The position numbers and the translations under genes are program-made. Below the pieces are notes generated by a model. It was not told the DNA's origin. It did not search any database and worked only from the letters and a program-made list of their open reading frames with translations. Shown piece after piece: positions 3,001 through 62,416 of a stretch of 64,000 nt of DNA (within the stretch, counting starts at the first letter, position 1; each line of letters starts with the position of its first letter). The DNA is from Chondrosia reniformis. Taxonomy: Eukaryota; Porifera; Demospongiae; Chondrillida; Chondrillidae. The stretch spans positions 6,634,001 to 6,698,000 of the forward strand of contig OX359190.1 in NCBI GenBank assembly GCA_947172415.1. The letters are read 5' to 3'.

Positions 3001-6000
3001 AATTCAAGCTTAAAATTAACTTTATATTATGTGATAAAGTTGGCATAATGTCAGCAAAATTACATTACTGTTATACAATAGTGCTTAGAAAATATTCTGC
3101 CTATATACAACCTCACTCCAATACAACAAACCCACTAATCCACCATATTTTCCCCTAACTGATTAGTGAGGAGACACTGTATACAGTCAAATTTCGTTAT
3201 AACAAACCTTGTTTATAACGATTGCCCTACTTATAATGATCCAATGGCTGAAGTGCAAAGAAAGCCAATTGCTTTAGACAAGCTATCGAATGTGAATGAT
3301 CTAGAGACAGGTAAGAAGACACAGGCATCGATCCAAAGAAAAATCAATCAAAGAGTACTCCTAAGCTAAGGAACTCCGTTGAAGATGGAGCGTGTTCTTT
3401 ACAGAAAAAGCAAGCACGGTGCAAAGCACGATGACCTTGTTACAGTAAACACCCTGATATAGTGAACTTTTATTGCATTCCCAAGAAGGATCGTTATAAC
3501 AAAGTTTGACTGTATAATGATTACTATACATTTTATGAACAACATTATGTACGTACATACGTACAGTGGACTCTCCATTAACGGACTCTCCGAGGAACGA
3601 CCCGTCGCTTTACAATGTCCATCAGTCAGTCACAGAATAGCCGTCCTATGCTAGTAATACATTAGCAATCTCCCAATAGCGGACACTCTGAATTCCGTCC
3701 AACGGACATTAAATATTCCCCAAATACGAACGTACGCACTGAAATTCTCTCTATAAGCGGACACATGCACAGCAGCAGTCAATATAGCATTGTCAAATAA
3801 CTACGTATACTACGAAATACAAACCAATAATAGAATAAGGATTTCTTCTAACTGCGTCGAACTTATCTTTAAGATGGTACATCTTGTTCGACTATTTGAG
3901 CGTCTAAAAACGCAGTTTGGCTTTAGAAATCTTTTGGTCAAAAGTTTTGACCCTGAGGGTCTTCATTAGCGACTCTCAGGGTCGAAACGTTCGACCAAAA
4001 GATTTCTAAAGCCAAACTGCGTTTTTAGACGCACAAAGAGTTGAAAGATGTACCATCTTAAAGACAATAAGTAAAAAAAGTGATATTCGATCGTATTTTA
4101 GGCCTGTTTGATGTGATGCAGTAATTTTATCTGTAATAAAACATTTGTAATTAATTATTATAACATTATAGCCTTAATTATTATGATGTTGTTGATGGCA
4201 ATTAATGTGAAATTCATGGTTGTGGTGACATTGTGGTGAAACTTTCCGAGTTAAGGACACCTCCATTCAAAGGACAAATACTGGTGTCCCAGCCCGTCCC
4301 TTGGATGGTGAGTCCACTGTATATGTTTTGTAGGAATTTCTTTTTGCTACTCTTGGCATTTTACAAAAACACAGTCCACACTTAGAAAATAACCCAAAAA
4401 GATTACACTTAAGCATCCTCAATCATTAAGATCATGAATATATATAAATATATATAAAAGCCCAACGATGCAGCCAAGTAGTTCAAGCGCAGGGGGCAGA
4501 TGTTTAAACTCGAAAGACATGTTCACCTATTTTCACATTGGTTAAAAATGCTAAATTAAGGTGAAGAAAAGTATACAACTTACCCTATATATTTCATCTG
4601 AAGAGTTGCTTAAACGTTCATGCACTTCTCGCACAATAAAATATTCAACATGAGAAACATCTTTGAAAACCTAAAAGCATACAACAATAAAGTAGACTTC
4701 TATAAAGATATTCAAGTGATTCTTTCATACGTACCTTAAGAGCAAGCTTCTCTTTATTTTCATTACAGGCAGAGTATACACTGGCATAAGCTCCAACACC
4801 TAGTTTTGTTACAATAGTAAATGTTCCTGAGTTTGACTGATCTATATAAGATAAGAAAATCACCGGTAAATTTTAATACAATTGGCAAATGAACGTAGCA
4901 GATACACTCATGATGACAACACACTTGCCCAAAAATACATGTATACGTACATTATCACTCATTAAATGGTCTAGCCAAAAACATGCTTTCCTATCAATTT
5001 GGGAATAATTATAAAATATTTATTTATACGTATATCTACATATAATAAACCAAATTCTGATGATTTGCATTCGTAGTGAAACAGTTCATGGTTTCCTAAC
5101 TCACTGTCTCTCATACATCATCTCAATCTCTATTTATACAGTACATTTGTACATAAAATGTACATACATAATTCGGTGTTTTTCTTCTTTCAGGGAGGTG
5201 CTAATATTGATTGACAACATTTAAGCTTGGTATTATATATATATATATAGATATATTAAACATTTTCTACAAAAATAGTCAAGATGTAGGGATGGCACAA
5301 AAAGTACAGAAACAAGAAAGGTATGCTACACAGTGAAGCATTAGCTTATGCATGAATCATACAACACCCTTGCTTGTAGGATTCATGAATAGCTAATGCT
5401 TCACTGTGTAACATCCCTTTCTTGTTTCTGTACTTTTTGTGCCATCCCTTCATCTTGACTATTTTTATAGAAAATTTTTATATTTCTAGTTTCTGTACAT
5501 TTTATGGAGCATGAGCTAGGAATTAGATTTGTATAATTAAAACCATTTTGGTTTCGTAATATTCGACTGATTATAACGTCAAATGTATGGGGAAAACGAA
5601 ACAACCAGTACCATCCCTACATAGAGAGTACTACTGTATTCTCTGATTAAAATGGCGAATTTATTGAAGCCTTGATTCTTGGGCCACGAAAACCGTCATG
5701 CTCAATAATAAAGTAATCGCTCTCGCTTCTACAAAAGAATACAGCGCGGAAAATTTAGAGTATTTTCGCTTAAGAAGCAGTCCGAAAGCTTGTTTCCTTT
5801 TTTAGTTATAGCGAGCGAAGATGAAGAAAACGAAAACGGGCAATTTCAAAGTTGGTTCATTTGCGTTCAAGGCCAGCTTATAGCGTGGTTGTTCTATAGT
5901 TAACCGTACGTAGTCTTGTTTCAGCTATTTTCAGCCTATTTCGGAATTTCGCTCCTATACCAATGTATTGGGAAAATGAAAAAGCCGTGCCATCCCTACA

Positions 6001-13159: not shown

Positions 13160-16100
13160 ATGGATGCATTCATGACAGTAGATCAGGTTATCTCGAAGAC
13201 TGGAGAGTTCGGAAGAGCACAGAAGAAGATTTTCTTGATAATGGGTATGTTGTCAGCGCTTAGTGGAATAGTTACCTTAGGTAACGTGTTCGCGGAGTTT
13301 TCCACACCCTGGCAATGTATCGACAACGAGAACCATTATCGACCAGTAAAGAATAATGTATGTGAATCGTACTCCAAGGGAATGTGCTTCGCAAAATTTG
13401 ACAAATTTCATGAAACCATTGTGTCAGAGGTAGGTCTTAGTGATATGCGATATTTTATGATTATTGTCATCTTTAAGTTTATTGACCACGAGTGCTATAC
13501 TACGGAAATAACTGACTGGTTAGGAATAATAGTAAGTATGTACGGATATTCGCATGACCATAATTGTTTATGATTAAAGTGGGTTGAATTTTTTCTACTC
13601 AAAGGAAGCCATGTGGTATGTACACAATCATAGTGTAGTACCATGCAGTTCTGTCTATACGTATAATTAATGTGTAACAAGAATGTTAATGTACAAATAC
13701 AAATATCTAGTAATAAATAGTGCATAGGACAAGAACATGGTCATGGTCTCTTTAGTTACTTTTCAGTAGATGGTATGTGTGCATCAGCCCTAGCTATTTG
13801 GGCAAAGTTGGAATCCAAAAAGCCCGATGATATGTTGAATGGCTTGCCTGATGTCTATTCATATTCGAATACTTATAACTAGTCAATTCCCACTGACTAC
13901 ATAATCTTTTACTTTTGTGTTTGTTTAAACATCCATAATAATACCAGAAGTGGTAGTAATAATATAAGGATCATTATTAGGTATTCTCAATTCAATTTGT
14001 TCAACCAATTCCTCCAGTATTAAAATGAACCACTAATCATTTGGATGGTATATCTTTTGACACTTTGAGCAGCTGAAAGCACAGTTTGGGTTTATTTAGG
14101 TTAAATATTTTAACGCCAAGGATCCTCATCAGCCACTGATGGATTGGGTGTTAAGTAGTCTTTTGACAGACACCATATCCTGCCTTGAAGAGCAAATAAT
14201 AGGAAGCAGAAAAAAGTGCATATTGTTGTTTAAACAGATTGTAGACAGTAATTGAAAATACCTAGCTATGATACATAATAGCCAGCCACAAGTCCTCCTC
14301 TGCAAACATTACAATAATATTTGCATGTATGTAAGAGAAATGACGAGCTTTCCCATGCTTTTGCACCTAGCATTTGCATAATTAGAAGTATTTATAAAAT
14401 CCTTTCCCTGTAGAACACTAGAGTAGCTAGTCAAAACATTGGTAGTATTTTAGAAAGCATTCCAATAGCTTCTTGTATTAAGCTTTACTTAAGTCGTATT
14501 GCCTTTATATACCTAGTTTGCGTTTCATGTACGTAATAGTTTGGGCACATAACGGTTGATTATACCATCCAGATATTCTGGAAGTCATGTTATAGACAGA
14601 AAAGTAGCAGACCATGTCTTCCAATCCCAGAATAGCTATCGTCTATCCATAAGCTTACAGGTGGCAGGCCTAATGATACACGCATATAATCTGGAAGAGA
14701 TGGCTATATATTACTTACTACCTGTCTTTTTGCTTAATACGGGTTAATGGGTAAATGACTGATGATGGAGATTGTGTGAGTGTTAACTCTTATTGCAGTA
14801 TAAAGTATATCTTATATGATATGTATTAGTACTAGTTAGTTTCACAGCGTAAGAATGTAGAAGTCAGTCATAATTTTTCCTAAATGTTAGTATTACAATA
14901 GGTCAATTATGCAAGGCTGCAGTGCCTGCTACTCTGTTTGTATGTGTTTTCTAGTTTTGTGCTTCATGTGCTTTGAATAATATCAAACAGTTAATGGACT
15001 AACTCCACTGACTGGAATTTCTTTGGTGGAAGTTCCTTCAACAGCTACTCAGCTGGTTTATATTTAAGCAGATATTTAGTGAGTCAGAAGTGCTTACTTC
15101 ACCAATAAACATCATTAGTTTCACCAGAACATTTTGTGTATAGCTATATTATTTTTTCATTATTTCTAACTATGTATGTACGTACATGTAATTTGGTTAG
15201 CATTTTAATATTTGGTTTTACAGTATCCTATCACAGATGCAAATTTGTTAACTTTTCAAATTGTTTGCTTGGGTATAAGCTGATAGACATAGTTTGTCAC
15301 AGATTTCTACTGTGATGTTGGATAACATCTAGGCTGGCTCGCTAAACCATCCTGAATGACATCCAAAGGCATGGGAGGGGAGGGATGGTATAGTGCACTA
15401 TAGACGTTTTAGACCAATCAGATACATTTACCCAAAATCCCTTAGCGAAAGATTCATTGTAGCTGTAATGTCTTAATGCAAAGGTGGTATTTAGCCTATA
15501 GTTCAGCCATACACAGTCCCTTCCCTTCCACGCCTTTGGGCACTTATTTGGGAGGGTTTACCAAGCCAAACAATGTTTAACCATGTCCCTTTAACTGTGC
15601 TACCACATTTATGTACATATATGTAATGTTTGACATTTTTCTCCTTTCTAGTGGAGTCTCGTTTGTGATGATGCTTACCTATCCAAATTACCACAGAGTG
15701 CATATTTTCTTGGAACAACATTTGGTAACTTTGTTGCTGGACCACTTGGTGATGGATTAGGTCGTAAATTCTTGCTTGTGTCATCTACTGTGCTGCTGGG
15801 AGTTTTTTCATTGGTCAATACATTTTCATTACATATTATTATGTACATCATTTTAAAGCTTCTCCTTGGAGTTGTCATGCAAGGAAACATATTAGTAATT
15901 GCTCTTATATTATTTGAGTTGATTGGCCCAAAGCATCGCAATACAAGTATGTTGTTTAGTGGTGTGGCCTTTGCTATGGGAGGTGTTTCATTAGCAGCAA
16001 TTGCCTATTATTTAATGGACTGGAGGCATCTAAGCTTTGTTGGATCAGTGCTATATCTTGTATCCTTAGTGTTGTTAAGGTGAGATATTTTAATATACAC

Positions 16101-18009: not shown

Positions 18010-18481
18010 AAAGTTACAAATAATTATCTTAGAGCAATATTCTTTTGAAATTTTAATTTTCAGTATTATTTTATGATCATATTGATATTTTTCATTGATT
18101 TATTATTTTTGGAAAATGACTTGACAGTTAATGCAAAAGCTAATTGCCATTTTTATGTATATACGTCCAGTACATTCAAATAAGTGGTATACTCCAGTGT
18201 CAGAAAGTCCAACAAGAAGCTCAAACCAAAAACTACATCTTTAAACCCGAAAGAGATCAAAAGATGAATTCTTACAAAGAACCAGGTTAATGAAATTAGT
18301 ATAATGTAACTACTGTGGCAAAAATTACCTTCACAAATGCACACTTTACATTGGGAATTAGAGGACCCAGATTAACATATTATTCTGCTACCTGGTGAGA
18401 GCCTACATGAAGACTCTAAAATAGAGAACTACATACATGTAACTTGAAAACACTCGAGTGGCTAGGTGCTATACCTTAAAC

Positions 18482-18602
18482 TACTCTAGCCGAACCCTGA
18501 AAAAATCAAATCAAACATTTCGACCCCAATCCAGAGATGATGAGGACCTCCGGATTGGGGTCGAAACGTTTGATTTGATTTTTTCAGTGTTCAGCTAGAG
18601 TG
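18482..18602. repeat. Hairpin element with hammerhead-like centre
   Basis: The arms of about 50 bp (CTCTAGCCGAACCCTGAAAA, ATCAAATCAAAC, TTTCGACCCCAATCC) are inverted at 18552-18602. The centre reads GATGATGAGGACCTCC, then GGATTGGGGTCGAAACGTTT. It lies between the SLC22 and glycosyltransferase genes. Confidence 0.75.
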
Positions 18603-18649
18603 GTTTCAGGAAACTGTCTTTATAAGCTTTCCTAAACAGCAGCAGCAGG

Positions 18650-18692
18650 GAGAGTGGGTGAGTGGGTGGGTGAGTGAGTGAGTGAGTGGGTG
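18650..18692. repeat. GAGT/GGGT microsatellite
   Basis: About ten tetranucleotide units (GAGT with GGGT variants) lie roughly 270 bp upstream of the next start codon. Confidence 0.85.
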
Positions 18693-18955: not shown

Positions 18956-21148
18956 ATGGCGATAAGGAAGAAAACTCTATTACTTGTTCTCTTTGGATAC
19001 CTGATTGGAAATATTATACCGTTGTTGAAAGTTCAAACTTTAATTCAGACTACTGATGATTCTAGGGCTAGACAAACCGACTGTGATTGCTCAAGAACTA
19101 GGTGTACAGGAAAAGTGGACATCACAGAGTCTGGTATTGAAAAGGCTACAGACAGACAGGCAATATTTAACTCGAAAAAACGACCAAGGTTACTTTCTCA
19201 AGAGCTATCCTTTCGGCAGCCACTCTTTATAGGAGTTGTTACAGCACGTAATCTACTAAGCACCAGAGCTAATGCTATATACAAGACGTGGGGTAAACTT
19301 GCACCGAAGCTCTACTTCTTTTCCTCCCCTTCACTTGAAAAAAGTCATAATCTCCCGATTATAAGCCTTCCTGGGGTGGATGATACTTACCCACCTCAGA
19401 AAAAAGTATGCCATCATATACGCATCAGAAATGCTTTTGTTATATGGTATAATATTTTCTGTGATTGTGTATACTGTTTAGTAGTTATTTGTATTCAATG
19501 CACTTCGCTTGTATATAACCTGGATCAACTCGCTCTTGCGTGCCCCTTTACTCTGACTCTGTATTAACTTTAGCTGCTGCTATTTTTGCTGATGTACCAT
19601 ACAGCTCTATGTTGTTAATCAGTATATCGCAATTGTTTCTCAAGTTTTTCCTATATACTTACACCTGCTAATGAAATCAGCTTAGGATTCATTTCTCTGC
19701 AGGTATTTCGCATGCTGGAGTACATGTATACTCATCACTTGAATGATTATAATTGGTTTATGAGATGTGATGATGATGTTTACATCAGAATTGATAAATT
19801 AATGAAATTTATATCAGAGTTAGATCCAAGCATTCCTTTATACATTGGATCACCTGGGATTGGTAAACCTGAGGACAGGGAACGTTTGCAGCTCCTACCG
19901 CATGAGGTATACTGTATGGGTGGGCCTGGAGTTATTTTCAGTAGAGCACTACTTGAAAGAATTGGACCTTATATAGAAGAGTGTCTACAGGTAACTAATT
20001 AAAAAAATTGCCTATCTCTTTTAATGCTCTGTTATTTTACTATCATGTATGTATGTATGTACGTATGTATGCATGTATGAGGTATAGCTGACTTAATAGG
20101 GATTTCTTCTAACTGGGCCAAATTTGTCTTTAAGATGGTTCATCTTTAAGTCTTTTGAGCATCTAAAGTCTACATATGATTTCTTGAGAAGTTGGATATC
20201 AGTCACTGAAGAAGACCCCAAGGACTAAACATCCAACTTCTCAAGAACCAAACTCATCTTCACTCGCTCAAGCCTTTATCCAAGCATGCAAAGCCTCTTT
20301 CAACTCCTGCAATTATAGTGTGAAATAAATGGTATACCAATAATAGTGCCAATTATATTAATTGTTTTACAACTGGACTATTAGAAACTTGCCATTATTT
20401 GACAACATATGTAAATTTACCTTCTGAGATTGTTTTTATTGTGAGTGTTATAAATGTCTGCAGAACTATGTCACCTTCTTATCCTCTTTTCCTATACACT
20501 TTTCACTTTTGCATATGTACGTACATAGATATAATGTAGTGCATAGAAAGATCAAGATTTTTCCCTAAATATAATCCAGTTACTAGTTTAAAGAAGATTT
20601 GATCCTTTGTATGTATTTTTAATAATGAGTATTATCTAAACGTAAAGTACTAGTGTGCAACACAGGGTTTTACTATTTGTTTTTGCCTGGCCTTGTGTTA
20701 TGTATATGCATAATGTTTAATTTTATCTGTGCTATATGTATGTAGGAAGTTGTTGTGTCTTACAATGAAGATGTTGAAGTTGGAAGATGCATTAGTAGAA
20801 TTCTGGGAGTTCAGTGTACTTGGTCCTATCAAGTAAGAGAAATACCTCATTGGATGAATATTATCAAGCTTTTTCAATGGGTGTTTCCTTCTATAGGCTG
20901 CAAAAATCTTCTATACGGATTATAGTAAAGGAGAAGTATTTTTATCTCCAGAGGTGTACCATCATAAGGATATTCTCAATGCAATCTCCATTCATCCTTT
21001 TAAACAACCTAATCAGATGGAGAGTATTCATCAATTCTACTTGGAAGTAAAGAATACTGAATATTCAAGAGAAAGTATAGAATTACAAAATGAACTGAAG
21101 ACATGGCAATCCATTACTCGGAAAAATAGAATATTTGCTGAATCATAG
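18956..21148 (+). CDS. Chondroitin-synthase-like beta-1,3-glycosyltransferase, N-terminal half only, 358 aa
   Basis: Exons 18956-19405, 19703-19990, 20746-20832 and 20897-21148, all phase 0. Residues 7-24 (LLLVLFGYLIG) form a signal anchor, so a Golgi type II protein is expected. The catalytic region matches the N-terminal domain of CHSY/CHPF proteins: FIGVVTARNLLSTRA, PGVDDTYPPQKK (139-150), WFMRCDDDVYI with the DDD metal site at 173-175, CMGGPGVIFSR (from 221) and NEDVEVGRC (253-261). In chondroitin synthases this half adds glucuronic acid to the growing chain, and a second GalNAc-transferase half follows. Here a stop at 21146-21148 ends the protein and no second half is seen before the convergent neighbour, so it is a one-domain form. 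A GTAAAT follows the stop, so a 3' UTR intron is possible. Substrate is inferred only. Confidence 0.85.
20100..20300 (+). repeat. Copy of the 3869-4063 hairpin family
   Basis: GATTTCTTCTAACTGGGCC, TCTTTAAGATGGTTCATCTT and TTTTGAGCATCTAAA match 3840-3910. A 17-bp perfect inverted repeat, TTCTTGAGAAGTTGGAT (20181-20197) with its complement at 20231-20247, encloses CTGAAGAAGACCCC and GGACTAAAC. It lies in the intron between exons 2 and 3 of the glycosyltransferase gene. Confidence 0.6.
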
Positions 21149-27900: not shown

Positions 27901-30900
27901 CCACAAGTATTTGCATAGAGGTAATACATAAACTGCCTTACAAACATCTACTTTTCATCAGTAGGATTTAATCCTGACCTGTTCCCCTCTATGTGAGGGG
28001 TTCAGAGTGAGTGAGAGGAGGAAAGGGAGAGAATGATGTATGAATTACAAATCTCCGACCACTGAGGCTTGCAACACCTCATGTGGTCACTGTCTGATCA
28101 CTCACATGCATGCACATTTTTAGTGATGTTTCAAAATTGATTTTTAATTAAATCCTCCATGGTTCGTGACCACAGAAAACTCAACAATTGTTTACATGTT
28201 TAACACACACAAAGCTTCTGTAAAGTGATGATGAGCTTGCCTATCATAAAATGCCGGTAAGTCCTCTCGCAACTTTGCATCAACATCTTCAAAATTCTTT
28301 TTTGTAAATTCATGCTGTTCTTCAGCCTGGCAGTTAGAGAAATGTACCTCTTTAAAATAAAGTTCCTACATACTGCCTCAACTGATACTCCCATTACAAG
28401 GAATCAAATTTATTACAAGGATTACCGGTCAAAGGATGACTTAATTATGAAGATGACCTTTAAATATATGGAAGAGATGTCCAGACACCTACTTAAATGC
28501 ATTGATAAACTACAGTATAAGGGATCAGTTCATTTCATTTTTACAATGACATATGTATTAGCCATATAAAATTAAATTGACATTCAATGGTCCTGTCTAA
28601 TATTACTTTAGCGGAATCCAAAAGAGAATAAAACATGCTTTTAAGGATAAATTATTAAACAAAAGGGTAGACAAATTACACCTCAGCAGATATCATCCCC
28701 ACTTTTAAATTTAGTGACATTTTTCTCCCTTCAGGATTTACGTACATTATGAGTCTAATTTACCACAAATACCTTTTGAAGTTTCAAATCATTCAATTTC
28801 TCTTTAGATTTTAAAGCCTAAAAAGATGGATGACACACATAAAATGAAAAATGGCTAATATCAGACGATTACATACACATTAAGTATAATTAATCATGCA
28901 GACCTCTACAACTGAATAGGTTTACAAAAACTAGTTATAGTTATTATTATTATTTATGATGTGAAAATAAGTTATCATGTCTACAGACACACATGTGTAT
29001 GTAAATACATTTCAATACATTCAACACTGTCCTCATACAACAAACTAATACAACAGTTCATGACACACTATACAAAACAGCTGAGGGCCTAATAGAAACA
29101 TTTGCTGTTTCATACATACTTCTAGCTCCCTTCTGGCTCTGTCATAGTCAAGCAGCTTTCTTTCCCTCTTCCCAATAAGAGTCTATTTAGAAAAAAAAAC
29201 AAATACAAGGAAATACACCTAATAACAATGAAAATGTTCATACTTACACATAAGCAGACATGTACAACATGGAACTACAGTGGAACCTGCATTATCCGAA
29301 TATTGCATAAACCGGAATTCTTAGGAAACTGACACAAAATCAACTGACGGATAGTTTTCTCCTACAAAAGGCCCAGAATAAACCGTTCCGGAACCTCTTT
29401 AATCCGCAATTCAACAGCTTCACTAAATATGCGCGCTTTAATAAATCCAACCTTTACAAATTGACCCATATGTATGTAAATATGCAAGTATCAATCAAAT
29501 TAAATGATGGGGAAATTTCGTAGCTGTATGTATTGATACCTAAATTGACAATTGCATACTTCTTCTCTGGTATCATGAGGGTTTTCAGCATTATTGTAAT
29601 CATTTATAATGTCAGTAGAAGTTTTTTTTTCATATAGTGTTTGTTCTCTAAAAATTAACAACCTCCATAATCCAATAATTTGGGTGGCCCCATCAGGATA
29701 TATGTGACAGAATGTTTTAATAAAGCAAATAACAAATAAGGTATGATTTCTTCATATACCTACGTACTTTCATGTCAGCAAATCTGATAAGGTAATGGTC
29801 AAGCTGTTCAGCAACTTGTACCCTGATTGTATCTTGAAGGTCTTCTCCTAGCAAGGCTGATTGCTATAAAAGAGGGATAAATCCTTTAGAAATGTACTGT
29901 ATCCTAAAACAAAGTAAAGATTCACCTATTGGCTGAAAGTAGTAGATTAGTCTTAGCTGTTCGTAAAAGAAAAAATAGCTACTCCATCATTGATTGAACA
30001 AAACACTAAAATACAAAATTCTAGTGACCCACACACTTCTTCAATTTGTTCAAATTTCTCCTTTTCGCCCCACTCTTGTTCATAGCATTCACCAGCAACC
30101 TTGAAAAGGGATCTACTAGCAGCAAGCCATGCTAAAAAATAAGAAAAAAAGGAAAGGTATTAGTTTAGTATATGAGCATGGATGTTGAGTGATGAATTTA
30201 ATTGACATCACTCAATGACAGGACAGCTACTCAGATATGTTGTGTCAGTCTACCCTTAGACCACTATATGTGCATTTGCAGTTTTATATAATAAATACAG
30301 GACTCCATGATTTAGTGTTGATTTGAATATCAATATCCACAGTCTAATGGCTATACAATAGTTTTGCATTAGCTAAAAAATTTATTGTTACTGTTTACAA
30401 CATTGCATGCCTGTTTAAAATAAAACACAGAGTACATATATTAAAAACAACCTGACTGAAAGGATAGGATACCTACACAATCTACTATGCATAACAGTAA
30501 TATACTGCTACATACGTACATCTCTCAAGTAATTCAAAATTCAAAACTATTACTTAAAATTACTGAGTATTTTACTAGTAACATCATCTACGTATAAAAA
30601 GGGGAATAGATACTATCAAAAGACAAATTTGTACATATAAAGAGAATGTATTTCATATACACTATATTTATGTATCCACATACATATGTACAATGGGTAT
30701 AGCCAAACATATTACAAATCTTCTTTTGGGTAGATTTTAATCCAAACGGCACCTTGTATCAACAAACACCTTTACAGCTGTAACAAAATAAAACTAGTAA
30801 TACTAAATTAGCTACTTCTACTTTAAAAAGCCTACTAGCCTTATCCATATGACATTAAGTTCAGAAATTTTAATAACTATAAATGCATGGTGGCTAGCCA

Positions 30901-39197: not shown

Positions 39198-42100
39198 ATG
39201 GAGTTTATATTTATATAAACAGAGTTAGCGTGACCAGGGGGGGCGGCGCTTATTGGATTACGCAAAGCTAGGTCATTGACACGAATGGATTACGATATCG
39301 ATATACAATTAATTTAGTTACTTCTCCTAAGCGGGAGGTATACATATCACTACATAATAGAGATAAGAGCTTTAGGGGTGCGGCGCAGCAGCAGGAGGTC
39401 TGACGTAGGTGCGGCAAGCAAACTACCTCGTGCTTGTTAGAGCAATCCGCCCACAGTAAAGATCCAGCTAACCGGCATAAAACTCGACGATGGCTACATC
39501 AGATTCCCCAAACGCTTCACAACCCTCTCAAGGCGAACAACAGCAACTTCCACAGTTACCCGACCTGGCCGAGCTCACTCCGACACAGGCTCAACGAGTT
39601 TTGGAATCGGCGCTCCATCACTTCCGTCGGATCAATGCGGAGACTCAGCCGTCAGGCACGCGAATACCCACAGCATCGCTACTCAACGGCGGTATTCTAC
39701 CTTCTGAATCAGGTAAGCCCTTATATTTGTACACATTGTCACTGCCAGCCCACACATCGCCAGCATGATACAGATATAACGGCCACAGCTACCATTCCTT
39801 GCTAGTCCAGCGACGATCACGTAAATAACTACTTTATGCGACGATCGTCGCACATGTTGGGTAAATATCCGCCCCCGCCCCCTTAATTCCCAACTCTCAG
39901 GCTGCATACTGAGTAGGGAACCTTAGTAATCCGGCTCACGGGCAGCGGCAGCAGCAGCCAAGTATATACACTTGTCAATACGGAAGGCACCACCTATAGC
40001 ATATCGGTTGGCTCAATCATGACTTCATGTCTATAGCTCCTTCTTAATATCACCAAGGCATCAGACTACCAATGACAGCTACAGGTTAACAAGGGCAATC
40101 ATTGATGTCCATAGTGACAAGCTAGCAGCACCACCGCAGCCGCAGCAGCCTTTGGGCCAGTCTGCATGCATAGCGTCCACACACAGGCACATATACTCAT
40201 TCACCATATTACCACTGCACCAGCCGACCCTGACACTTATACATGAAATATACCATAGCCAGTCACTTGAACTCGACCAGGCCACCGTCACAACCATTCC
40301 TATATTCTTTACACTAGATAACGGAGTCTAAAGATAAGTCATTCAGGCACACCCCGACGCATATAACAGACCGCACACACGTATACAGACACACTTTGTA
40401 GCACTATACAGGCCAGTTGACTAAGCATATAGGCTGGAAACGAGAGCTTCCAGCGACCCCCACCCCCCCTTTTTCCACTAAGCATTGAGACTTGTTTCAC
40501 TGGCCCCCTCGTCTTTCTATCCATACAGACCAGCCACTTGCCTTCATTCAGCCTGGTCAAATTCCTGCAGCGGCGCAGCTAGCCCACTTGGCTCTCCAAC
40601 CATCAACGGACACTACAACTCCCACGCTACCCTCCGCGCAGGCTGATGCCATTGGTACTACACTCATGGCCTCACTCGGCAACCCTGCAAAGGAGTCTAC
40701 GGCAGCATCTCATATACCTCAGCAAGCAGTGTGTGACACGGGAGAGCCCCTACCCCTGAAGCTTGTACAATCCTTGAGAGAGATGTCTTTTGTGCAGCTC
40801 CATTGGTTCTTGCCAGCTCCATTGCTGCAAGCCACTTTTCCGACTGAAGAATGTCCTCACAGCCACTGTCACTGTGCACCCAATTCCACCTCGAAGCGCA
40901 GCATGAAGACAGTGGATGATATTTTCACGTGGGTGCTGTGTTTTAACAGGTACATAGCAGCACTATGCTCCTTCCACCCAATGATGTTACCACAAATGAC
41001 AGCATACGCCAACACAATACTGCAGGCTTACCTGCAGTTTCAAGGCAATGGCTGGCGAGTATATGATCGCGCCTTCAGGATTGAAGCGGCCTCCAGGAAA
41101 AATACTAATTGGAAAGCAGTGGATCCCAGCCTTTATGCACGCTTTGTGGCCTGTCAGAGCCGCCGTACATCAACCTGCCAATTTTGCTGCAGCTCTAGCC
41201 ATAAATCATCAGCTTGTCCTTGGGGTGTGGACGAGCCTTCTCAACAGAACGGGCCCACTACAACCCCCTGGCCGCCAGTTCACAGTATTTCAGTTGGCAA
41301 CCGCTCCACATCACCCATATGCCTCTTGTGGAATGGAGGTGCATGTAGATTCCCAGAATCTTGTCGATATCGCCATGCATGTGCCATCTGTCTAACCACT
41401 GGCCATCGCTCAATAGAATGCCAGCGCATATCATTCAGACAACGTGGTCCCCTTGCCTTACTCCCACCCCCCAATAAACGGGCAGCCCCATAGGCAGGCT
41501 GCCGCTATGGAGGAACGCATGCAGGTGATTTAACGTATAGTTTGCCGCTACATGGGCAAGTATTGTTAGATAGAGATGTACGATATTAGTTGCATAATTG
41601 ATTTCGGGCACAGCATGCAGGTCAATTAAGATTTGTTTATTGTTATATATAATAAATATTCATTTGTGACGACATCTGTGGCACTGCATTTAATTTATCT
41701 CTTAAAGCATTCCATAAGTTGGGCAGCAGGACGTATATATAGACAATGTCTTCTTGGCAACCATAGGCAATTGCAGGACATACAGTATTACCGCATATAA
41801 ACTCTCCCGGCACGGCAGCAGGCAGTTATGTATAGAGGCTTGCACTGTATTATACAATAATATTTAATAATAAATGTGTGGTTTGCACCAGACCATATAT
41901 ACAACAGTTGCTCACATTATATCTAGCTACACCTACAACTTGCTGATTGCATATATATAGCACATACCCCTTCCCATTTAATTCAGGTCACGGATGTTAT
42001 GCCTATACAAAGGATCTTCAAGCATTTACTAATGCCTCTACCCGCCCTTCCCCTCATTGGCGCATGCCTAGGGCACCTCAACCAGCACCATCCCCCCTAG

Positions 42101-45100
42101 TGGTGCCGCTCTGGCAGGATGCCTTGCAAGCCTACCCCGATAGGCCTTTGGTTCAATGGATACTGGAAGGACTACAGAAAGGTTTTCGCTTAGGCTGCAG
42201 CCACGCATGACACCAACTAAGACCAGCAAAGCGTAATATTCCTTCAGCATATGAGCACCCAGAAGTGGTGGAGGCTTATCTGCTGGCAGAAGGCCAAAAA
42301 GGTCGTATATTGGGCCCTTTTCCACTCCCACCTCTCGTACCTCTTCAAATCAGCCGATTTGGGGTCATTCCTAAAAAGTCACAGCCTGGCAAGTGGCGTC
42401 TTATTTTAGATCTGTCATTCCCAGAGGGCCACAGCGTTAACGATGGGGTCTCTCCAGAGTTGAGTTCTCTTCGCTACCCATCAATAGATCTGGCAGTCAC
42501 ACAAATACTACAAGTAGGCAGGGATGCCCAACTCTCAAAATTGGACATCAAAGATGCCTATCGCATCATTCCAGTGCACCCTGACGACTGGGGCCTTCTG
42601 GGCATGCTGTGGAAGGGGCAGTATTATGTTGACACCCGTCTCCCATTTGGTCTTCGATCAGCACCAAAACTATTTACAGCATTGGCAGATGCCATCCAGT
42701 GGCTCATCAAGGAAAGAGGCACTGAATGCTGCATCCACTATTTGGATGATTACCTCTTCGTGGAAAAACCCACAGCCACAGCACAGGCTCTCCATATGGC
42801 CTGTGCTACCCTTAGTGACCTAGGGGTCCCCTTGGATGCAGAAAAGGTAGAGGACCCCAGACGTGCTTAGTATTTCTAGGCATCGAACTGGACACCCACA
42901 CCTTGACAGCACGCCTGCCACAAGAGAAACTCCAGCGGCTGTCAGCTCTCGTGGATGCATGGCAAGACAGGAAGGCCTGTACAAAGAGGGAACTGTTATC
43001 GCTCTTGGGAGTTCTGCAACATGCAGCAATGGTGGTTCGTTTTGGCAGGGTGTTTATTCGCCGCATGATCGAACTATCAAAGGTGGCAAAGGAAGACCAT
43101 CACTTTGTCAGACTGAACAAAGAGTTTCGCTCAGACCTACTATGGTGGAAGACATTTCTCCCCAGGTGGAATGGCTGCAGCTTCTTACTGTCAGCGGTAC
43201 TAGCAGCCCCTGACATACAAGTTCTATCAGATGCCTCAGGCCCATGGGGTTTTGGAGCCTGGTGCCCGTCTTCATCCGCATGGTTTCAGGGCTGTTGGCC
43301 CCTGACATGGAGTCAGAAGAATATAACCGTTAAGGAACTGCTACCTATCGTGCTGGCAGCAGCAGTTTGGGGTCCTCAATGGCAGCGAAAATCAATACGC
43401 TTCAGATGTGACAACATCGCCATGGTCCATGCCATCACTTCGGGCAAAAGTACAGAAGCACTGGTCATGCACCTACTAAGGGGGCTACATCTGTTCGCAA
43501 TGGAATATGGTTTTTGCATTTCGGCAGAACACATCCCAGGGAAAGAAAATGGCCCAGCCGATGCTCTCTCTCGTAACAAAATTTCCTCTTTTCTTCTGCA
43601 GGTACCAGCAGCTGCCACACTACCAACAACCCTATCTCAGGATCTCCTCCAGCTATTTTTGGCAGAACCGCAACCGGACTGGCTATCGAGCGATTGGAGA
43701 AAGCGGTTGATTTCTATATTCAGGAAGGTATAGCCAGCTCGACAGCTCGGACTTATGCCTCTGGCCAAAAACATTACCTGACCTTCTGTCAGCTGGTGGC
43801 TCTACCCCCTCTTCCTGCCTCAGAACAGCAATTGCTACTATTTAGTGCGTTCCTCGCCTTAAAAGGACTCAAGTGGCAGACCATCAAAACATATCTAGCA
43901 GCGGTTAGACATCTCCACATTACCAATGGTCCCAGCACTCCTTTCCCAGATGGCAACCGCCCCCGCTTGGAATTACTGTTGAAAGGAATAAGGAAGGCAA
44001 CTTCAATCATACCAAAGAAACCTCGCCTTCCCATTACACCAGTGATGCTCTGCAAAGTCTGGGACATCATAAGGACTCCCCCTACTACCCCAGATAAATT
44101 AATGATATGGGCCGCAATGAATGTCTGTTTCTTTGGTTTTCTTCGAGCAGGTGAAGTATGCATGCCCTCTGCCACGTCCTACGACCCAATTTGGCATCTA
44201 TGTCTAAGAGACGTATCAGTCGACTCTCACGCTTCCCCTACTAAAGCCTTTATCAATATCAAGGCTTCCAAGACTGACCCCTTCAGGCAGGGTGTCACAA
44301 TCACACTAGGCAAGACAGACCAACAACTTTGCCCGCTGACTGCTTTATTGCCTTTCATAGCACTGCGCAACACACAGCCAGGGCCATTATTTCAATTTAC
44401 AGATGGCTCTTTTCTGACCAGGGAGAAGTTTGTGCAAGAAGTCAGGCGACTGCTTCAATCAGCAGGCATAGACCCCACACCATACTCTGGTCATAGTTTT
44501 CGTATTGGAGCAGCAACTACAGCGGCACGAGTAGGCATGGACGCGGCTTTAGGTGGAGGAGCTCTGCTTATCAGCTGTATATAAAGATCCCCAGAGAATC
44601 TCTAGCCTCAGTGTCCAAGGCTATGGCAACCAGCAACTCATAACCAGCCTTTAGCAAATATATACGTACATGTGCATGTGCTTATCATATCTTATTCTTT
44701 TGGTATATGCATGAGGGAGGCAGAACTAATTAGTGTGTATTAATAATCACAATCTCAGACTGATATATAAAGTACTATCTTCAGTGTTTAATTCGAAAGG
44801 TTATATTGGGTGGAGAAACTCCTTGGGCCATAACAGCCTTGCCCGATAGGTCTGTTATGATATTCCACCCAAGCCATCAAAACCAATAAGTGCGGTTATA
44901 TATAGAAACAGAATAGGACTGCTTGGTATATATATAAGGAGTAACCAAACCAATTAAATTTAGGCGCATGCATGCATTAAGCAAATTATAGTAGGAAATA
45001 TTTAGCAGGAAATTGTAATTGGTAGCCCCTCCTGGTCCTGTACCACGCTCCAAATATTAACCTGGCACTTGCATGCCTGGTGACCTCTTGAAAATATGTA

Positions 45101-45161
45101 TTATATATTATATATTAAATAAGGGCATGGCAGACCTCGTTGTTTATGCCACCTGGGCCAG
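39198..45161 (+). mobile_element. DIRS-like tyrosine-recombinase retroelement (fossil), about 6 kb
   Basis: The parts in order are a leader ORF (39490-39768), a gag-like ORF with Cys/His knuckles (40492-41493), reverse transcriptase (about 42265-42870, catalytic HYLDDYLF), RNase H (about 43220-43580) and a tyrosine recombinase (43694-44540, with the HSFRIGAATTA box). No integrase and no long terminal repeats are seen, as expected for DIRS-order elements, which insert through the recombinase. It sits inside another retroelement; GCTAA occurs at both edges (39193-39197 and 45162-45166). It is broken but long stretches stay open, so it is fairly young, with perhaps a handful of breaks. Confidence 0.85.
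44804..44870. repeat. Compound stem-loop near the 3' end of the DIRS-like element
   Basis: ATTGGGTGGAGAA pairs with ATTCCACCCAA, and inside it CATAACAG pairs with CTGTTATG. The loop contains CCTTGCCCGATAGGT. DIRS-order elements carry inverted or split terminal repeats used in circular intermediates, so this could be part of that; inference only. Confidence 0.55.
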
Positions 45162-45166
45162 GCTAA

Positions 45167-45660
45167 CCTCATGTTTGAAGGTAAAGTGAAAGCAGCACTG
45201 AGGATATTCACAACCAATGGGCAAAGTAGCTTTCTTAGTCCTAATCAACTAGTTGAGGGCGGGGATAAAACAGTACTAGACGTGCTCAGGGAAAAGCATC
45301 CAGAAGACCAACCCCTAGTGCCATCTTGTATCGTTGATCCTGCTAATGCAGAGTCTTTTCACCCTGTGTTCTTTAGCCAAATTGATGGAGCACAAATAAG
45401 ATCAACTGTTCTCAAAACTCAGGGAGCCGCATGACCTTCAGGGCTAGATGCCGCCTACTGGAGGCGTCTCTGCACATCCTTCAAAAAGAATATGAACTAC
45501 TTTGTGATGCAATTGCAAAGTTTACCATTTGTGTTTCTTCCTCTCACATTGATCCACAATGCTTATCAGCCTTCACTGCAGGCAGACTGATAGCTCTTGA
45601 CAAAAGTCCAGGAGTACGTCCAATTGGCATTGGAGAAATCCTCAGGAGAATTGTCTGTAA
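45167..45660 (+). mobile_element. Reverse-transcriptase element, middle part (fossil)
   Basis: The pieces GKVKAALRIFTTNGQSS, TVLDVLREKHPEDQPL, SQIDGAQIRSTVLKTQGAA and DKSPGVRPIGIGEILRRIV belong to the same family as the part at 38346-39197 and follow it in the order expected. The DIRS-like element separates them. Broken. Confidence 0.65.
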
Positions 45661-45987
45661 GTCCACCCACCCCTTGACCCATCCAGTCACACACTTTCAC
45701 TATTTATTCCTTACTTACTGCACTGTTTGTTTTATCTTACTGCATAAAATATACCTCACGTGACCACCCACACTCCCAGCTTCCCGCCCATTATTTTCCC
45801 GCCCGCAGCCATCTCACCTGCCCCTCCCCCTACCGATATATAAGTCACCATGCCCTGTAATCTCACTACCACTGATGAAGACCCGAGATTGGGTCGAAAC
45901 GTTTGGTTATCATTGACAAGCGACATCTGTCCCAATCCCTTGGCTAGTGCAGTTCCAGATTCTGAAGCATGAATACACCTAGCCACA
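45661..45987 (+). mobile_element. Small insert with TATA box and hammerhead-like hairpin
   Basis: About 330 bp interrupts the reverse-transcriptase element. It begins with GTAAGT-like sequence, has a C-rich stretch, CGATATATAAG (TATA-like, about 45833-45843), then CTGATGAAGACCCGAGATTG and GGTCGAAACGTTTGG. It could be a terminal repeat of a Penelope-like element, a SINE, or (less likely) an intron. Ends are approximate. Confidence 0.45.
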
Positions 45988-46108
45988 CAGAGATCTTCAA
46001 AGTGATCTTGAGTACCATCAGACAAGACATACAATCTACAATCGGTGCCCTTCAGCTTTGTGTTGGCCACGAAGCTGGCTGTGAAGCAGCAGTACATGCC
46101 CTGAACCA
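45988..46108 (+). mobile_element. Reverse-transcriptase element, right fragment (fossil)
   Basis: A short stretch reads IRQDIQSTIGALQLCVGHEA then GCEAAVHAL, the next block of the same reverse-transcriptase family (LQLCxGxxAGxEAAVHA). The rest is missing; the Gypsy element follows at once. Confidence 0.55.
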
Positions 46109-46109
46109 G

Positions 46110-49100
46110 CCACTTTGACTTCCACTATGGTGATAGTTGAGTGGAAGACCCACATACCACCGAACAGTGAGATGGAGAAACTAGGACAAGTGAAGGGGAT
46201 CCCACCTGCTGAGATTTACTTGTTGGAGAGTGCCCACTGGTATCCATGGCTGGAGGTGGCTAGGGCCTTAGTGAGGCCCATGAAAGGAGTGTCCCAGGGA
46301 GAGTCTTGAACACTGGAGTAGATCCCATCACCTTATTCAGGGGACAGGTTCTAGGCACCCTTGAGCAAACAGATCCACTGGAGCAATCAATAGCTTCTGT
46401 CCAGGAAACCAACCGGGAGCCAGTCCTCCCTGAAGCAAAGGAAGCTGTACTCTGGGAGATGATCGACCAAGCCAGGACTTGCCTGGACCAGACCCAGAAG
46501 AACCAATTCTTTTATCTCCTTACAGGTTTCTCGGATGTCTTTGCAGGTAGCCAGGATGACTTTGCCGATGACCCATGAGATAGCGACTGGAGAAGCCCAG
46601 CCCAGACAACAGCATGTCAAAAGAATCTCCCCTCTCAGAGGCAGGAAGTGAGAAGACTGCTGCGGAGAATGTTGGACCAACAGGTCATCCAGAATTCCAG
46701 CAGCCCGTGCACATCACCAATCGTCCTGGTGAAGAAAGAGGATGGCAACTGTAGATTTTGTGTGGATTACCGCAAGGTTAACTCTATCACTCGCAAGGAT
46801 GCCTACCCTCTTCCCCGTGTCGATGACATCCTGGATGCATTAGCTGGATCAAAGGTGTTTTCCACCCTGGACCTCATCAGTGGCTACTGGCAGGTAGAGG
46901 TAGCTCCGCAAGACTGTCCAAAAACAGCATTCTGCACAACAGAGGGTTTATTTGAATTCAATGTGATGCCATTTGGATTGTGCAATGCTCCTGCCACCTT
47001 TCCAGCGCTTGATGGACCTGGTCCTTGCTTGTCTTCAATGGACATCCTGCTTAGTTTACATCGACGACATTGTGGTCTTTGGTAAGTCCTTTGTGGAACA
47101 CCTTGCTAACCTATCCATAGTTCTGCAGAGACTTTGCGAGGTTAACCTGCAGTTGCAACCTAGGAAGTGCCAACTCTGTCAGGAACAAGTCAGCTTTCTA
47201 GGACCTATTGTCTCCAGCAAGGGAGTTTCCACGGATCCAGCTAACACAGACAAGGTGAAGAGGTGGCCAGTACCCACAACCACCAAGGAGGTACAGCAAT
47301 GTCTAGGCTTGGCCAGTTATTACCGCCTTTTTGTCAAAGACTTTGCCACCATTGCAAGCCCCTCCACCATCTTACTACTAGAGGGACTTTTTTCGCTTGG
47401 ACTGAGGCTTGTCAGGACTCCTTTCATACTCTGAAACAGAGGTTAGTTTCTGCTGCTGTACTGGTTTTCCCAGACTTTGCAGCCCAGTTCATTCTGGACA
47501 CGAATGGATTGGTTCTGTGCTGTCTCAGGTACAGGATGGAGCAGAGAGACTCATCCCTATGCAAGCATGGTCCTGACAAAGCAAGAACACAACTACTGTT
47601 TGATCAGAAAGTAGCTGCTAGCTGTCGTAGTTTTCCTGAAGCATTTTTGACCGTATCTTTTGGGGATGAAGTTCACACTCCTAACAGACCATGGCTCCCT
47701 GAATTGGCTCTGCAACTTCAAGGAACCAGAAGGACAATTAGCACATTGGCTGGAGAAGCTACAGGAGTATGACTTCACTGTGGTATATCGTTAAGGCAAG
47801 AAGCACCAGAATGCGGATGCCATGTCCAGGATCCCATGTAGGCAGTGTGGAAGGCCAGTGTCTGGTAAGCCGGTAGGTGTGCCCATTTAAGCCATCTCCA
47901 TGCCTCACAACTCCTCCAAGTCCAATGTTAGAGAGGCACAGATGCAAGATGACATCGTGGGGCCGATCCTTCAAGGAAAGAGAGGAAGGTCAAGCCATCG
48001 AAGGAGGAGGCCAAATCAAAGCCACCCATGTACCGCAGACTGTTGCAGCTCTGGGACCAGCTAGTCTTGGTAGAAGGAGTCCTGTAGAGACAGTACCAGT
48101 CAAGAAATGGACAGTCCTCTCTTCTACAACTAGTGGAACCCACAAGCATGAGAGAGCTGGTGTTGCAGGAGCTACATGGTGGAGTGGCAACAGGACATCT
48201 CAGGGAGGACAAGACCCTTGAAAGACTCAAGGCTCGTTTTTACTGGCCAGGCTATAACAAGGATGTGAAGCTACGGTGTCAGCGATGCCAGGAATACCTC
48301 AAGAGGAAGTCACCACCACGGAAACGTAAGGCCCCCATGCAAACCCTGACTGCAGGTTCTCCAATGCAGATCGTTGCTCTTGACATCCTTGGGCCTCTTC
48401 CCAAGTCAACAAATGGTAACCAGTATATCCTAGTCATAGCTGACTATTTTACCAAATGGATGGAAGCTTATCCCATCCCAAACCAGGAAGCTTCTACTGT
48501 AGCCCAGACATTAGTAGACCACTTTTTCCTCAGATACTCTCCCCCAGAGCAGTTACACTTCAGCCAAGGCCGACAGTTTGAAAGTCAACTAATGCAGGAA
48601 GTTTGTAAATTGCTTGGCATTGAGAAGACTAGGACAACACCCTACCACCCACAGAGTTATGATCTTGTGGAAAGATTCAACTGCACCCTGCTGTCATTGT
48701 TGTCCAGAGCCTTCAATGGCAAGGAACATGAGTGGGAGTGCCATCTGAGATCCACCTGCATGGCTTATAACACCAGTGTGCAGGCAAGCACGCTCATCCA
48801 GCTCATGCACTGAGTATGTGACCACCTTACAGGACAAACTATGTACAGCATATTCAACTCTCCGTACGAAGTTGAAGGCTTCCTTTGACAGACAACGACA
48901 ATACTACAACCGGAATATCCATGGCAAACCGTACAAAGATGGTGATCTCGTGTTTCTCTACTCCACTGTCATTCCTAAAGGTAAGTCCAGGAAATTCTAC
49001 CAACCTAGGACAGGACCATACAAGATAGTGAAACAGTTATCTGATGCAGCCTACCGCATTCAACACACCAGGAATAGGAAATACTTGGTAGTTCACTTTG

Positions 49101-61510: not shown

Positions 61511-61660
61511 AGAATAAAGCCTTGTTGTGTCAGCTACATGATTTCCAATTCATACTGACCTGTATTCCCATTCCTCGTGTTTTGCTGATGAAGACCTCTG
61601 GTTTGAAATGTTCAGAATTAGTAAATTCATGTTGCTGACGTTCAACAAGGCTTTATTCTT
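61511..61660. repeat. Hairpin element with hammerhead-like centre
   Basis: The arms AGAATAAAGCCTTGTTG... and ...CAACAAGGCTTTATTCTT are inverted, with CAGCTACATG matched by CATGTTGCTG. The centre reads GCTGATGAAGACCTCTGG then TTTGAAATG (61584-61610). Its arms differ from those of the 3869-4063 and 18482-18602 elements. Confidence 0.7.
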
Positions 61661-62151: not shown

Positions 62152-62416
62152 ACCACAGCAGATTTGATTTGCCTTGTGAGGGAGCTAAGAATAGCGACAG
62201 TTGATTGCATGTATTTGCATAATCAACAGGGTTAGAGACCATTTTGTAACTTGTACACAAGGACATAAAGGCCAAGGCCTTTACATACGTATGTCATATG
62301 ATATCCCTTGTGTACAAGTTACAAAATGGTCTCTAACCCTGTTGATTATGTGAATGCATGCAACCAACCGTCGATATTCTTAGCTCCCTTACAAGGCAAA
62401 TCAATTCTGCTGTGAT
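62152..62416. mobile_element. Palindromic MITE, arms about 110-120 bp
   Basis: GATTTGCCTTGTGAGGGAGC, AATCAACAGGGTTAGAGACC and TGTAACTTGTACACAAGG are mirrored at 62307-62416 with few mismatches. The loop is about 30 bp (AAGGCCAAGGCCTT region). No ORF. Confidence 0.75.

Follow-up and report, generated by a model that had tools for sequence, protein, structure and literature searches.

Hammerhead-like cores in the window

The window, that is the whole stretch of 64,000 nucleotides that was analysed, contains near 18482-18602 an inverted repeat with arms at 18474-18536 and 18548-18610 (63 nt, 90% complementary), and the layout ATGATGA-G-GACC...GGTC-GAAACG that a preliminary description of this DNA had placed there is borne out at 18537-18569. 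Five further loci had been named, near 3966, 14135, 20206, 45873 and 61585, and in all six the layout can be recognised, decayed in some of them. The features concerned are the following.

3831..4067, minus strand: putative Penelope-like element (PLE) insertion of family C (copy L061), palindromic
3934-3975, minus strand: hammerhead-like core of the 3966 locus, stem I GTCG/TGAC, stem II GACCC/GGGTC
14097..14138, minus strand: decayed hammerhead-like core
18440..18613, plus strand: putative PLE insertion of family B, two head-to-head copies, the left with the long (tailed) end and the right with the short end
18537-18569, plus strand: hammerhead-like core of the 18482 locus, in the palindrome loop, with A in place of C3 and stem I lost
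20181..20247, plus strand: palindromic remnant with a decayed hammerhead-like core at 20200-20240, G12 changed
45663..46006, plus strand: fragment of a putative PLE family A 3' region (pLTR), 5'-truncated, with a TATATAA box
45866-45910, plus strand: hammerhead ribozyme motif of the 45873 locus, stem I ACCA/TGGT, extra A, stem II GACCC/GGGTC, GAAAC-GTT
61511..61659, plus strand: putative PLE insertion with an inverted short arm (61511-61544 / 61624-61659)
61579-61619, plus strand: hammerhead ribozyme motif of the 61585 locus, stem I TTTTG/CAGAA, stem II GACC/GGTT

The 3' end points of the 18440..18613 insertion were set by comparison with family B copies (L031), and the left flank of 20181..20247 is by eye similar to the family C 3' end. 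Read in parts, the 45873 motif runs ACCA, CTGATGA, A, GACCC, GAGATT, GGGTC, GAAAC, GTT and TGGT. Its core is intact, as is that at 61585; the 3966 copy reads CTAATGA and AAAAC, and in the 18538, 14135 and 20206 copies stem I or the core has decayed. The core had been described as the centre of an inverted repeat, and this stands for 18482, 3966 and 20206 and falls for 61585 and 45873, since at 61585 it lies off centre and at 45873 no inverted partner was found in a self-comparison of 44500-47200.

A covariance model was built from 14 related copies, picked from 51 script matches partly for good pairing. Five of the six loci score at E < 0.01, namely 45866-45910 (E 1.5e-11) and 61579-61619 (E 3.4e-10), both scores being partly circular as the training set held the 61585 copy and a near-identical relative of 45873, together with 3934-3975 on the minus strand (E 3.7e-9), 18538-18570 (E 6.5e-5) and 14097-14138 on the minus strand (E 0.0033), the sixth, 20200-20240, being weak (E 0.42); these last four copies were outside the training set, with relatives of some inside it. 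The Rfam hammerhead models had no match up to E 10 within the window or in copy L083, so that annotation by Rfam only would miss such copies.

TGATGA is also the C box of C/D-box snoRNAs. That reading was dropped, as Rfam placed a U8 snoRNA elsewhere in the window (27955-28098, plus strand, 61.5 bits, the gathering threshold being 41) and the palindrome gave only microRNA-like matches below the gathering scores.

The window holds several other repeats. What we take by eye to be a DIRS-like retrotransposon, with RT and tyrosine-recombinase-like frames, spans 40492-46300; the PLE fragment at 45663-46006 appears by eye to be inserted into it, and a Pfam search found no family for 43694-44584. An LTR retrotransposon remnant with Integrase_H2C2 and rve domains lies at 48133-48813, and a LINE-like element at 56116-58404 has a 762-aa frame with an endonuclease/exonuclease domain and a weak RT match. 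Long inverted repeats that have no hammerhead core occur at 62154-62414 (arms of 109 nt at 93%) and 5257-5480 (90 nt at 94%), and a small GAGTGGGT-type minisatellite (18652-18692) adjoins the 18482 insertion.

The core and its extra purine across the genome

The genome searched comprised 117,379,552 bases in 15 contigs, in keeping with the 117.37 Mb, 14 pseudomolecules and mitochondrial genome given for odChoReni1.1 of Chondrosia reniformis (PMC12181767). The pattern CTGATGARN{10,24}GAAACRTY has 1,217 exact matches (609+608), versus six (2+4) for the reversed-pattern control. Each contains the hammerhead core CUGANGA...GAAA, with core bases fixed by the search pattern, so that their constancy among the matches is no evidence. 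A pattern scan of IMG/VR, run without a control, gave 14 matches, for which chance was considered likely.

The additional base that had been seen between CTGATGA and the stem is real and kept. Patterns with a GACC/GGTY stem II matched 700 times with an extra A (365+335) and twice without it (1+1), a comparison that covers A only, family B having G there. Stem II, which in the hammerhead definition begins directly at A9, is thus set off from it by one base in 700 of the 702 matches of this type, and the extra base is not decay.

Stems I, II and III

In hammerhead numbering the motif would presumably run from C3 to A9, followed by the additional purine and stem II, then by G12-A15.1, a loopless pairing of C15.2 with G16.2, U16.1 and U17, and lastly by stem I, which closes on the bases ahead of C3. 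GUU or GUC follows GAAAC, RTY being imposed by the search pattern. Stem III consists of AC facing GT and is loopless; it can form only between two motifs. The missing stem III loop, with the stem I partner directly after the core, is probably why stem I had been overlooked.

Stem I was assessed in 100 of the 1,217 copies, all on contig C1 and fetched by the core alone, 97 of them distinct. Paired cells numbered 284 of 388; 500 shuffles, which leave relatedness among the copies in place, averaged 250.3 and never exceeded 271. Moving the partner out of register by 1 to 3 positions left 13-49% paired, versus 73% in register. The first pair was GC in 59 copies, AT in 13, GT in nine, CG in four and TA in one (rest 11), the second TA in 51, CG in 13, AT in five, TG in three and GC in one (rest 24), and the third TA in 45, TG in 22, CG in nine and AT in three (rest 18), with the fourth paired in 46 of 97. 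Stem I is weak, with 0-1 contiguous pairs, in 33 of the 97. The four positions of stem II were paired in 73, 72, 68 and 65 of 75 rows.

Changes on both sides were found in eight of ten pairs of the 14-copy model alignment. They also appear in single copies, such as L013 (TTCAG/CTGAA with stem II GGTC/GACC) and L105 (TTACAA/TTGTAA), which is what a kept stem would give. Unconstrained RNAalifold on the 75 rows found three stem II pairs, paired the core GAUG with CGUU and left stem I unpaired. In family A, loop II could form a pseudoknot with the bases ahead of stem I (AATCTC/GAGATT), but this idea was rejected because native family B copies lack it; in palindromes this complementarity exists because the second arm supplies it.

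The hammerhead reading of the core is supported, in that stem I partners are present at 45873, 61585 and 3966 and stems I and II covary in the genome, stem I with the weakness noted. Among the options that had been left side by side, namely inactive relatives, a variant fold or a different hairpin, the stem I covariation and the 700 matches versus two favour a variant hammerhead.

The probable host element

Copies of family A, that of the 45873 locus, run upstream into an open reading frame. In copy L010 positions 2-1312 are open for 437 aa, with a match to RVT_1 (E 0.023) followed by one to GIY-YIG (E 0.0039), both below the Pfam cut-offs; an NCBIfam scan yielded nothing near its cut-off, only matches of RT type and one due to chance, and a PDB search found no relative. 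About 220 nt separate the end of the frame from C3 of the ribozyme. Since RT followed by GIY-YIG is the order of PLEs (PMC11167929), the family A host would be a Penelope-like element, and the link to such elements that had been suggested from the motif is upheld. Families B (18482) and C (3966) are provisionally filed with PLEs by their common core, end structure and insertion pattern, the link to a frame having been traced for family A.

The differing arms had been read as a sign that the centre is the conserved functional part, and half of this holds. The arms do differ, because the loci belong to distinct PLE families, and they are themselves PLE 3' ends.

Inverted repeats as probable insertions

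Within 3.5 kb of each other, and among the matches listed for family A (42, with 40 of 75 candidates scored), all 12 opposite-strand pairs have the minus copy on the left and the plus copy on the right, so that their 3' ends point outward; another pair has the direct arrangement. Among the first 100 listed copies of contig C1, neighbours within the same distance comprise six minus/plus (head-to-head) pairs, one plus/minus (tail-to-tail) and one direct, the plus/minus pair and one of the minus/plus pairs combining unlike cores. Outer flanks have at least seven bases in common at 18 of 23 loci (mean 10.0), versus 43 of 506 mismatched pairs (mean 4.8), in windows that extend four bases into the element and with L033 and L034 as duplicates of one insertion. 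The 18482 locus has no visible flank duplication (four bases); the flanks of the 3966 locus have CAATAA, six bases, in common. The outward 3' ends and the flank sharing argue that, as a rule, an inverted pair is one insertion, and what marks PLE insertions, that is inverted head-to-head pLTR copies, short target duplications, AT-rich targets and an optional tail, was found here.

Twin arms have 24 variants in common, of 43 and 42, versus 4.6% between insertions, a single insertion (L019) supplying 12 of the 24. Either a single template or two RNAs from the same locus would be compatible with this. Copies L061-L067 of the family C palindrome have similar flanks and a loop in opposite orientations (L062 versus L065), as if the centre had flipped.

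One tail per insertion

In 23 of 26 double-ended insertions, a count made after merging loci of the same insertion by eye, one end only carries a tail of roughly 30-45 bases, and none has two long ends. Measured from C3, the 3' end points lie at 98-111 or 129-135 in family A, 78-92 or 123 in family B and 104-107 or 137 in family C, where 135, 123 and 137 are the ends of the queries and the long ends may extend slightly farther. One short and one long end were found in 12 of 13 family A insertions (the exception, L006, has an end at 69), six of seven of family B (L053 ends at 100 and 53, in neither class) and five of six of family C (L081 is apparently short at both ends). The family C locus of the window and its segmental copies, among them L068 with a short end at 90, were counted once, and ten family A, seven family B and three family C loci with a single end in the stretch examined were left out.

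The tail has been described as an extension of 30-40 bp that may or may not be present; it corresponds to what lies between two RT start sites, and in vitro the strands did not differ in their start sites (PMC11167929). The near-obligate split of tailed and untailed ends is what this genome adds; in literature with partial coverage, key subscription papers lying outside it, no title on inverted PLE ends promised such a tail count.

The probable start site and the palindrome junctions

Of 100 copies, 17-18 have a TATAWA box that begins 25-45 nt ahead of C3, 14 have one from -25 to -5 and 5-6 have one farther out, so that the position of the box is not specific; by eye, TATTTAAA recurs at about -38 in some ten copies. 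By eye, the beginning of several insertions (L083, L084, L093, L104, L137 and L153) lies about 3-8 nt ahead of C3. We infer this to be where the RNA starts, and take palindromes that have the core at their centre to be twins of short RNAs of nearly full length. Among the arms inspected by eye, two (L004 and L094) have their start 3-5 nt ahead of the predicted hammerhead cleavage site and none exactly at it.

In most family C palindromes, as at 18482, the start of one arm falls slightly within the ribozyme and that of the other slightly ahead of or within it, which makes the core the palindrome loop. Family A arms are truncated at many places. At family C junctions the short arm starts at the 5' strand of stem II and GAC(C/T) faces GGTC at the join, as if a cDNA end had folded back or two ends had been joined via a 4-base homology. 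By eye this model fits six of the eight junctions taken as independent, namely the window locus with its copies (which differ at the join), L071, L077, L080, L085 and L184, and does not fit L183 and L081.

Proposed explanation and alternatives

Taken together, the motif is very probably a minimal (stem III-poor) type I hammerhead of endonuclease-bearing PLEs, with one purine between A9 and stem II, and the inverted repeats are very probably insertions of these elements. As the family A hammerhead lies close behind a TATA box, the 5' end of the element RNA is probably located at stem I or immediately ahead of it, and the RNA would carry the ribozyme at that end. Given the loopless AC/GT stem III, published relatives suggest that cleavage, 3' of GUH, would require a dimer or the help of a protein. 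On insertion, orientation and flank duplications show that both cut ends of the target become joined to element 3' ends and that the copies meet head to head, both ends presumably being primed by the target DNA. Where both copies reach approximately the RNA 5' end, the ribozyme would end up in the middle of the palindrome, which is its position in the 18482 and 3966 loci.

The core might alternatively be kept as a PLE signal, be it initiator DNA or a protein-bound RNA hairpin, that is hammerhead-like by descent and no longer a ribozyme. Cleavage by the anole PLE hammerhead, which occurs only with its protein added, is dispensable for insertion in vitro (PMC11167929); the core also sits at the expected position of the start site and stem I is weak in one third of the copies, all of which would suit such a signal. 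However, stems I and II change on both sides around a constant C3-A9 and GAAA (a constancy imposed by the pattern), and a plain DNA signal needs no pairing, so this reading is unlikely. It is highly improbable that we are dealing with animal retrozymes, which are short units without autonomy that multiply via RNA circles formed by paired hammerheads. Many copies are short and have no ORF in the stretch fetched, as retrozymes would, but according to the literature a retrozyme consists of repeats some 150-300 bp long with hammerheads at their limits (PMC7761336), and the neighbours among the 100 listed copies of contig C1, mainly head-to-head with one direct pair, do not form short direct repeats of that kind. 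The PLE frame of family A, with its matches below the Pfam cut-offs, speaks against them as well.

Within the preferred reading of PLE hammerheads there is a further proposal, quite unlikely as it stands, that the lasting job of the hammerhead is to pair two template RNAs via the self-complementary ACGT of the loopless stem III, one protein dimer then priming one RNA per cut strand and each end using a different RT start site. If true, it would account for the head-to-head twins, the variants that twin arms have in common and the one-tail rule, and would explain why the motif is retained despite cleavage being dispensable in vitro.

Comparison with known systems

Minimal type I hammerheads of Penelope-like elements were reportedly described by Cervera & De la Pena in 2014 and by Lunse, Weinberg & Breaker in 2017, and strings similar to the core with the extra purine may occur in vertebrate PLEs. 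A viroid hammerhead with one extra core nucleotide, reported to adjoin A9 and to be tolerated, goes back to De la Pena & Flores (2001); the likeness is that single nucleotide, and the difference is its near universality in this genome.

The PLE hammerheads in print share with the present ones the type I form, the almost absent stem III, the location in PLE pLTRs and the dimers as which they are thought to act (PMC6155905, PMC7761336, PMC6466107), and the difference is the sponge host; a search on PLE hammerheads and sponges, of partial coverage with key subscription papers outside it, surfaced no sponge study. Poseidon from Anolis (PAc) is likewise a PLE with its hammerhead at the pLTR-ORF boundary, AT-rich targets and two RT start sites that define the tail (PMC11167929), but the in vitro equality of its strands differs from the split of end types between insertion ends seen here. 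Penelope of the rotifer Adineta vaga has head-to-head inverted pLTRs, junction palindromes, which were explained by self-priming, a 31-bp tail that is optional on one inverted pLTR, 8-10 bp TSDs, and a TATA box with a TCACT initiator; it differs in its few copies, versus more than 1,000 cores here, and the passages compared do not treat the hammerhead (PMC3846280).

The kind of system is therefore already known, and what is unusually clear in this genome is its rules for the extra purine and the tail, which merit a second look as a nearly fixed base and a one-tail rule. A compact, chromosome-level genome with more than 1,000 putative minimal PLE hammerheads in several families, their extra core purine almost fixed, also offers double-ended insertions numerous enough to count how PLEs integrate.
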